Shown one piece after another: positions 44,246-45,166 of a stretch of 54,669 nucleotides of DNA (position 1 is its first letter; each line of letters starts with the position of its first letter). The position numbers were made by a program, and so were the translations under genes. This stretch comes from Acidimicrobiales bacterium. GTDB lineage: Bacteria; Actinomycetota; Acidimicrobiia; Acidimicrobiales; MedAcidi-G1. Under the pieces are notes generated by a model, which worked only from the letters and a program-made list of their open reading frames with translations, did not search any database and had not been told where the DNA came from. The stretch is from the NCBI GenBank assembly GCA_022452035.1, contig JAKURV010000015.1:1-54669 (forward strand), given 5' to 3'.

Positions 44246-44609
44246 CGGTGAGCCGGCCGGGTGGCCGCGGCGTGGTTTCCACGCTGAGGAAGGTCGGGGC
44301 TCCGCAGGGCAGGATGCTGGCTAGCGGCCAGTCGGGGCGACCCGCAGGAAAGTGCCACAGAGAACAGACCGCCGATGGCCCGGCCCCTTGGGATCGGGCA
44401 CAGGTGAGGGTGAAACGGTGCGGTAAGAGCGCACCAGCGGCCGGGGTGACCTGGCCGGCTAGGCAAACCCCATCCGGAGCAAGGCCGAACAGGGAGAGGG
44501 CTGCCCGCCCGCTGACACTCCCGGGTAGGCCGCACAGATGGATGGTCACCCATCCGGACCCCCGCAAGGGGCCGGTGGACAGAACCCCGCCTATAGGCCG
44601 GCTCACCGT
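44246..44609 (+). ncRNA. rnpB: RNase P RNA, bacterial type A
   Basis: The catalytic RNA that matures tRNA 5' ends. Conserved pieces in order: GAGGAAGGTCGGGGCTCC (from 44286), GCCACAGAGAACAGACCGCC (about 44353), GGTGAAACGGTGCGGTAAGA (from about 44408), CATCCGGAGCAAGGCCGAA (about 44471-44489), GGTAGGCCGC (44524) and GACAGAACC (44578). The ends pair perfectly over 14 bp (44246-44259 with 44596-44609), defining helix P1. Small departures from the common form are seen in the P4 region (GAAGGTCGG instead of GAAAGTCCG) and an extra C in GACAGAACCCC. Plus-strand and minus-strand ORFs here are spurious. Confidence 0.96.
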
Positions 44610-44614
44610 CACCC
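44578..44614 (+). repeat. rnpB 3' end, copy A of a direct repeat
   Basis: GACAGAACCCCGCCTATAGG and on through the P1 strand to CACCGTCACCC. It matches 45132-45166 apart from one mismatch and two single-base gaps. This copy is the functional end, because it pairs with the rnpB 5' end. Confidence 0.75.
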
Positions 44615-44615
44615 A

Positions 44616-44632
44616 CTCCCCTGCGGGGTGCA
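44616..44632 (+). terminator. GC-rich hairpin after rnpB
   Basis: CACTCCCCTGCGGGGTG can fold into a short GC stem 6 nt after rnpB. There is no T run, so terminator function is uncertain. Confidence 0.35.
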
Positions 44633-44651
44633 CCTGCGCGTATCTACACCT
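44633..44651 (+). repeat. Inner repeat, copy 1
   Basis: CCTGCGCGTATCTACACCT, matched with two mismatches by 45081-45099 on the other side of the GYD gene, in direct orientation. Confidence 0.6.
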
Positions 44652-44731
44652 GGGGGCTCCGAGTCGTAGAGGGTCCGGTCTAAGCGCCAACATGGCACGC
44701 ACTAAACCGACTTCAACAAAGGTGGACTCCG

Positions 44732-45052
44732 ATGGCCCGAATCCAGATCTGCGGAAAGTACAGCCCAGGAGGTTGGGAGGGAGTCACAGCTGAAGGTGCT
44801 GTCTCTCGGGAGACCCACATGCACGCGATGTTCGAATCACTAGGCGCCGAAGTCGAGTGCTACTACATGCTTCCAGGCTCTAACTACGACTTCACCATGA
44901 TTCTCAACAACGCCGACGCAAGACTCCTCGCTGCGATCAAGAAAATGGTGGGCCCCTCAGGTGCCGTAATCGAGACTGAGGCTGACGTTCTGATGACCGC
45001 CGAGGAATGGGACGCCGTGGAAGGTCAGAGTTATCGCCCTCCGGGGAGCTGA
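44732..45052 (+). CDS. GYD domain protein
   Basis: 106 residues from ATG 44732 with AGGTGG 7 nt upstream. The layout (IQICGKYSPGGWEGV, ESLGAEVECYYMLPGSNYDF, then TMILNNADARLLAAIKKMVG, TEADVLMTAEEWDA) matches the small ferredoxin-like GYD family of unknown function. Codon use is less GC-biased than the neighbours (many A/T third positions). It is flanked by two direct repeats, the outer one being the rnpB 3' end, so horizontal arrival is likely. Confidence 0.85.
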   Translation: MARIQICGKYSPGGWEGVTAEGAVSRETHMHAMFESLGAEVECYYMLPGSNYDFTMILNNADARLLAAIKKMVGPSGAVIETEADVLMTAEEWDAVEGQSYRPPGS

Positions 45053-45080
45053 CACTGCTTAACAGGGCACCCCAAGCGCG

Positions 45081-45099
45081 CCTACGCGTATCCACACCT
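45081..45099 (+). repeat. Inner repeat, copy 2
   Basis: CCTACGCGTATCCACACCT, 17 of 19 bases identical to 44633-44651. Confidence 0.6.
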
Positions 45100-45105
45100 A
45101 CGGGT

Positions 45106-45119
45106 CGTGCCTCAGCACG
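45106..45119 (+). terminator. Hairpin downstream of the GYD gene
   Basis: CGTGC-CTCA-GCACG, 5-bp stem, 53 nt after the GYD stop, no T run. A weak terminator candidate. Confidence 0.35.
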
Positions 45120-45131
45120 CTCGCTGGTTAT

Positions 45132-45166
45132 GACAGAACCCGCCTACAGGCCGGCCACCGTCACCC
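45132..45166 (+). repeat. Degenerate copy B of the rnpB 3' end
   Basis: GACAGAACCCGCCTACAGGC and on to CCACCGTCACCC. It resembles the 3' conserved region and P1 strand of rnpB but has no rnpB body before it. It ends 15 nt before the EamA stop. It may be the attachment-site duplicate left by an element that integrated at rnpB. Confidence 0.7.

Follow-up and report, generated by a model that had tools for sequence, protein, structure and literature searches.

The locus raises the question of what lies between two copies of the 3' end of rnpB and how it came to be there. The window, by which we mean the whole stretch analysed (54,669 nucleotides of contig JAKURV010000015.1 from an Acidimicrobiales bacterium), carries rnpB on the forward strand. 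A 552-bp insert (44615-45166) follows the intact rnpB 3' end and is closed by a decayed copy of that end. The following features are referred to below.

44249-44614, + strand: rnpB, class A RNase P RNA; its 3' end forms the left boundary of the insert
44578-44614, + strand: R1, the intact rnpB 3' end, attL-like, pairing with the rnpB 5' strand
44615-44637, + strand: spacer with a CCCC-TGC-GGGG hairpin, which by eye appears to resemble the right arm of S sites
44638-44655, + strand: S1, candidate cassette junction; weight-matrix score 40.6, strict-pattern match
44732-45052, + strand: GYD-domain gene (106 aa; PF08734); no other ORF of 50 aa or more was found in its S-S interval
45086-45103, + strand: S2, second candidate cassette junction; weight-matrix score 29.2
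45110-45131, + strand: right-end arm, by eye; its first 17 bases are CCTCAGCACGCTCGCTG
45132-45166, + strand: R2, displaced and decayed rnpB 3' end, attR-like, from the empty-site alignment in G013 and G006
45182-46096, - strand: EamA transporter gene (PF00892), right flank of the insert

The insert at rnpB and its counterparts in relatives

Class A rnpB was identified by an Rfam RF00010 match at 44249-44609 (+ strand, 231.6 bits), and full-length matches to 44249-44614 in many relatives placed its end at about 44614. The original prediction, that the end of rnpB recurs around a GYD-domain gene, agrees with the alignment: 44578-44614 and 45132-45166 share 37 aligned columns with one mismatch and two single-base gaps (92%), with an E value of 7e-8 in a comparison of 1.9 kb with a 3.4-kb locus. 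As had been claimed, only R1 pairs with the rnpB 5' strand, through a perfect 15-bp inverted repeat (44244-44258 and 44596-44610); R2 has two bases fewer. The shorter direct repeat described inside this pair was also found (44633-44651 and 45081-45099; 17 of 19 positions identical by eye), as was the GYD domain (34.3 bits against a cut-off of 31.4, at 44732-45052). The codons of this gene were said to be less GC-biased, and GC3 was indeed 0.65 against 0.77-0.81 in six other ORFs; the GC content was 57.3% for the gene, 59.0% for 44615-45131 and 66.8% for the window. The ORF list contained no integrase-sized ORF in the 552 bp between the repeats, consistent with the reported absence of an integrase. 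A chance origin of the R1/R2 and S repeats was ruled out by the alignment E value and by the weight-matrix scores against a shuffled background.

A search for rnpB gave matches in 55 of 61 genomes; 30 loci were retrieved and 29 of these oriented, including 13 from congeners besides the window's genome. In 9 of the 13 congeneric loci, no more than about 100 bp separates the EamA gene from the end of rnpB. The empty site that insertion predicts, with rnpB directly before EamA, was observed in G013 and G006, of which rnpB is 97% and 95% identical, respectively, to that of the window; here R2 together with the EamA flank aligns unbroken to rnpB itself at 88% identity. The same segment also aligns through rnpB in G009 and G005, at 68-71%. 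The two further checks proposed, for other cargo at this site and for copies of the rnpB-end repeat elsewhere, both gave positive results: different DNA follows rnpB in four of the 13 congeners (G010, G011, G014 and G015), and copies of the repeat bound inserts in G010, G025, G054 and G039. At the level of sequence, these comparisons establish the insertion, the empty site and the presence of other cargo at the same site. The view of an integrated, integrase-less element of about 550 bp at rnpB is thus backed by the empty sites and by the other DNA found there in congeners.

The insert in G025 is 0.8 kb long and contains one S and one gene (DUF805/SHOCT-like by eye) without an integrase. Larger insertions were also noted. 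In G054, from another family of the order, a 10-kb insert with phage-like ORFs (by eye) lies between two rnpB-end copies (L068, G054:C177:19500-32500), and in G039 a second rnpB-end copy 16 kb from rnpB marks a probable large insert (L079, G039:C4:26500-46000).

In G010, a second rnpB-end copy closes a 6.6-kb insert encoding a 326-aa tyrosine recombinase (PF00589, 7.7e-18), the start of which is about 50 bp from that second end. A third copy is on a separate contig; because this contig also bears EamA, the G010 inserts are likely to form a tandem series, provided that the two contigs join. By eye, the same 17 bases, CCTCAGCACGCTCGCTG, precede the second rnpB end in both the window and the integrase-bearing G010 element. 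Together with the presence of a recombinase at rnpB in G010, this suggests that the window unit is probably a small integrase-less relative of G010-type rnpB elements. The G010 element (L062) also encodes a protein that has seven treble-clef stretches of the DUF4379 type and ends in a DUF559-like part, possibly defence cargo.

The S site and its arrays in the family

The consensus of S is cgcctgY-RCGTATCTACACCTRGGG followed by a GC-rich hairpin, with little conservation upstream of -8; conservation at positions within the search pattern is biased by the search. Against the scores of S1 and S2, nothing above 8 was found in the shuffled window (219 kb, one strand, composition kept), the window itself being among the loci used to train the matrix. 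Of the 17 genus genomes, 15 contain the 18-mer RCGTATCTAYACSTRGGG with up to two mismatches; the number of sites per genome ranges from 0 to 11, and from 0 to 2 for a reversed-pattern control. A stricter 22-mer pattern matched 23 of 48 family genomes, in all six genera and without a control hit, which rules out that S is merely a local repeat. The genomes are draft MAGs, and many S sites lie near contig ends. Among 298 genomes of the order, six matched, five of them from the 11 family members and one from the 287 others, the latter with a single two-mismatch hit. The original prediction had described the short inner repeat but missed that it appears to be a family-wide junction, which would make the GYD gene a cassette.

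An exact-pattern scan of genome contigs yielded 27 stretches, all but three from Acidimicrobiales MAGs (some titled Microthrix). Occurrence of S in Verrucomicrobia or Poseidoniales (L175, L179 and L177) was rejected, since these contigs match family genome G071 at 99.3-99.5% identity over 2.0 and 6.9 kb and are thus misbinned. One strict exact pattern gave no S match in IMG/VR, and Rfam scanning of three array loci (L121, L122 and L132) identified tRNAs only. The core site of a tyrosine recombinase usually has dyad symmetry; none beyond chance was detected in S (p 0.42). By eye, S may in part resemble the rnpB end (CGCCTRC ... CACC).

Family-wide arrays of S are established by these searches and by the layout of the loci, as read from their sequences. 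Among 41 S-S intervals, 39 contain an ORF of at least 50 aa, and the longest ORF runs along the S direction in 32 and against it in seven. The intervals mostly hold a single gene, a few of them two. S copies within an array are mostly collinear, with seven in one array of different genes (G002:C11); mixed orientations were observed in L090, L126 and L131. The first same-strand S is 20-216 bp downstream of a tRNA gene (Val, Pro or Gly) in 10 of 51 loci, which were chosen for S or GYD and many of which are cut by contig ends. The gap between rnpB and S is 23 bp in the window, 42 bp in G011 and 80 bp in G025. The array in G009 reads tRNA-Val, S, gene, S, gene, S, a 44-nt copy of the tRNA-Val 3' end, and then another copy; this is the layout of the window, again without an IntS- or G010-type integrase. 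A G014 locus has a lipoprotein gene, a single S and an integrase between two copies of tRNA-Pro. Behind S there is often the GC-rich hairpin and, about 50 nt later, a start codon.

Domains were scanned in 23 proteins, comprising 21 from S-S intervals (some of them antisense ORFs), the G014 integrase and its neighbouring lipoprotein. Matches were obtained to DUF2061, ABM, trypsin-like, DUF459, LysM, MOSC and P450 domains and to two beta-lactamase-family hydrolases; one interval codes for PhyH plus a 2OG-Fe(II) oxygenase, GmrSD_C scored 22.9 bits against a cut-off of 23, and 10 of the 23 proteins gave no domain match at 0.001. As judged by eye, many cassette proteins are lipoproteins with a like start, a Thr/Pro-rich linker and differing C-terminal parts. 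Arrays L121, L122, L124, L065 and others encode lipoproteins with a common signal peptide, of which the C-termini are hydrolase, nuclease-like or unnamed.

Relatives of the GYD protein (82-95% over 105-106 aa) are encoded in G011, G005, G004 and G010, away from the rnpB contig in the three of these genomes where rnpB was found; G015 and G013 have partial relatives, located at contig ends. The G005 gene, located away from rnpB, has S on both sides (L072, 2414 and 2853), and the G004 gene lies between tRNA-Pro and S. The weight matrix detected no S in the 15 kb scanned for the G010 relative and, for the G011 relative, one weak S (12.3) on one side only.

Homology around S and candidate recombinases

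Flanking sequences were compared between all pairs of 104 distinct S sites from 54 loci, 205 pairs being too short. At least one homologous flank was found in 247 pairs: 57 on the left only, 183 on the right only and seven on both sides. Control positions were drawn from 52 of the S loci, at distances above 600 bp from S, and paired by a shared exact 14-mer; homology at these positions was both-sided in 394 of 451 pairs. The pairs are not independent: lipoprotein starts are joined in 129 of the 183 right-only pairs, and the left flanks have a tRNA or rnpB in common in 13 of the 57 left-only pairs. After clustering, 18 of 24 left-flank clusters have more than one right cluster after them (16 without an RNA gene on the left), and 12 of 15 right-flank clusters have more than one left cluster before them. 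In gapped alignments, homology of the left flank persists to position -7 and has dropped to background at -6; that of the right flank stays at background as far as about +7 and clearly exceeds it from +16 onward, thus beginning at about +8 to +16. The break in homology is therefore located at S. One-sided homology that breaks at S, established here by alignment, indicates that S would be the junction where genes are shuffled, with the GYD gene as one such cassette.

Recurrence of cassettes between species points in the same direction. Among the matches listed, a segment with ends near S is common to G003 (57-530, L128) and G002 (8019-8489, L121) at 89% identity, and a MOSC cassette is common to the window's genome and G015 at 93%. 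A P450 cassette with both its S sites forms a 1.42-kb block that is 99.0% identical between the window's genome (G000), where it is beside tRNA-Lys, and G001, where it is beside tRNA-Val. Both contigs exceed 100 kb, and rnpB of the two genomes is 86% identical. A near-identical S-bounded gene at different loci in two distinct species is thereby established from the assemblies, and by the look of it the block moved recently between these species.

Which enzyme would act at S was considered from the distribution of PF00589. There are 24 matches in the genus, and S adjoins only four of them, located 32-140 bp beyond S and pointing at it, in G010, G014 (two loci, one broken) and G015. Eight loci around other PF00589 matches or fragments (L154-L161) contained no S, and three of the 17 genus genomes, all with S, gave no PF00589 match. 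The window's genome has one partial match only, at a contig end. Relatives of the 376-aa integrase of G014/G015 type (IntS), taken at 60% identity or above, occupy ten places in nine family genomes. The start of the IntS gene is adjoined by tRNA-Pro or tRNA-Val in six of the ten places, and S is within 0.8 kb of its 3' end in six of the ten. IntS occurs without S in G022, and the contig ends within the IntS gene in G036, G068 and G069. A short C-terminal IntS match near S was detected in G003 (E 9e-6). In the window's genome, weak IntS C-terminal matches were noted near two S sites (G000:C23, L089:4987-5034 and 7477-7533; E 0.002 and 0.007), and are perhaps remnants of a lost integrase.

The integron integrase model TIGR02249 gave no match above the NCBIfam cut-off in 48 family genomes, some of them incomplete. 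Three S-adjacent integrases were scanned with it; one scored 44.8 against a cut-off of 265 and two were not listed, and none of the three is an integron integrase. That a G010-type or IntS enzyme also acts on S is a guess, and action of host XerCD at S is possible.

Explanations and known systems

The reading that we favour, at a probability of about 0.78, is that one actinobacterial family has an integron-like cassette system, with S as a joining site of its own, no IntI and a putative recombinase. Confidence is set slightly lower by the GYD relatives lacking a good S and by the integrases lacking S. On this reading, the insert 44615-45166 would have entered the 3' end of rnpB, a place typical of tyrosine integrases targeting structural-RNA genes, leaving the intact R1 with rnpB and the displaced old end as R2. 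Its cargo would be one cassette; DNA would be cut and rejoined at S, by which arrays would gain and lose cassettes and pass them to one another. Several arrays appear to begin just behind rnpB, tRNA-Val, tRNA-Pro or tRNA-Gly, and a few seem to end with a tyrosine recombinase, others, the window's included, being without one. A site-specific recombinase may act at S, the leading guess being the island tyrosine recombinase, with host Xer as another candidate. The integrase-less unit may be mobile in trans, and readthrough from the RNA gene may help to express the first cassette. A more far-reaching form of the proposal, which we hold only tentatively, is a third kind of capture system beside integrons and dif modules. 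S and a putative recombinase, perhaps that of islands targeting RNA genes, would let single genes hop between arrays behind structural-RNA genes. The 552-bp unit would then be a minimal stand-alone form, mobilised in trans, the hopping genes would be those for secreted lipoproteins, oxygenases and membrane proteins, and S would be family-specific.

The nested layout R1-S1-S2-R2 would also be produced by an ordinary decayed integrative element at rnpB, with GYD as leftover cargo and the inner repeat as integrase arm-type sites near the att cores. In both the window and G009, the distance from the RNA-gene copies inward to S is about 20-30 bp, G010 has an integrase-bearing relative, and two GYD relatives are without a good S, all in keeping with such decay. 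This reading is nevertheless quite improbable, given that S recurs seven times between different genes in the one G002 array, that homology breaks at S, and that the G005 GYD gene is S-bounded away from rnpB. The multi-S arrays and the one-sided flank homology disfavour S solely as integrase arm-type sites. Alternatively, S might be a promoter or leader before each gene, shuffled by ordinary homologous recombination between repeats, as the hairpin and the start codon about 50 nt on would suggest, together with the 129 right-only pairs in which both sites precede a lipoprotein start. Against this, no conservation is present upstream of -8, where a -35 box would fall, S is also found at the ends of arrays, ahead of an rnpB or tRNA copy or of a convergent integrase, and the seven opposed longest ORFs are not explained; S as a promoter is disfavoured on these three grounds, and we consider it improbable.

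Rather unlikely, in our estimate, is a dif-like nature of S, with the cassettes as dif modules that host XerC/XerD would move. At most one PF00589 match (of unclassified type) was present in several S-bearing genomes, which would suit a host enzyme. S does not resemble the actinobacterial dif consensus, which may not be that of this genus and which gave one three-mismatch hit in 17 genus genomes. The dif modules of Acinetobacter are a known parallel: in the part of the source available, a gene module is described as flanked by XerC/D and XerD/C sites (PMC6449649), whereas S copies within arrays are mostly in the same direction. The two have in common that short sites flank single genes for which movement by site-specific recombination is proposed, and differ further in that several S arrays adjoin RNA genes.

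The attC boxes of integrons are RYYYAAC and GTTRRRY, and by eye neither is present in the S consensus. As in integrons, the members of S arrays are mostly single genes, a conserved site, usually in one orientation, bounds each of them, the same gene occurs in different arrays with different neighbours, and a tyrosine recombinase ends a few arrays and is absent from others. By comparison, the arrays are thus mostly of single-gene cassettes that appear to be shuffled at sites, as in an integron. Unlike integrons, no integron integrase exceeded the cut-off in the 48 family genomes, the recombinase, where it adjoins an S array, is downstream and points at the cassettes, and several arrays start at structural-RNA genes. 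Since no IntI was found and attC was judged by eye, we class the S system as working like an integron, not as an integron.

Islands anchored at tRNA genes are another relevant comparison, as described in the accessible parts of reports on a flexible island of Ca. Actinomarinales (PMC7771536) and on additive islands and tycheposons in Methylophilaceae (PMC10872708). Those islands and the S arrays are alike in marine or aquatic hosts, tRNA targets, repeats of tRNA fragments and inserted cassettes, and tycheposons bear a tyrosine recombinase (PMC10872708), as do a few S arrays. They differ in that S is a conserved junction between individual genes, no such junction being mentioned in those parts of the two reports, and in that rnpB is also a target. 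A tycheposon-like layout of cargo, tRNA repeats and tyrosine recombinase is present in G014; the window unit is at rnpB, without a recombinase. A literature search, with most subscription papers outside its range, found nothing on rnpB as an integration site and no cassette arrays in Acidimicrobiia, which is no proof of novelty; in the accessible part of PMC8776855, rnpB appears as a promoter source.

If the favoured reading is true, marine actinobacteria would own an integron-like system that is invisible to the usual criteria, IntI and attC boxes, and rnpB would join the places where such cassettes sit. It would be directly testable in marine metagenome reads, through S x S junctions and circles. 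The system would explain the swapping of single secreted or metabolic genes in these genomes, and would offer a natural case in which to test for more than one origin of gene-cassette systems.
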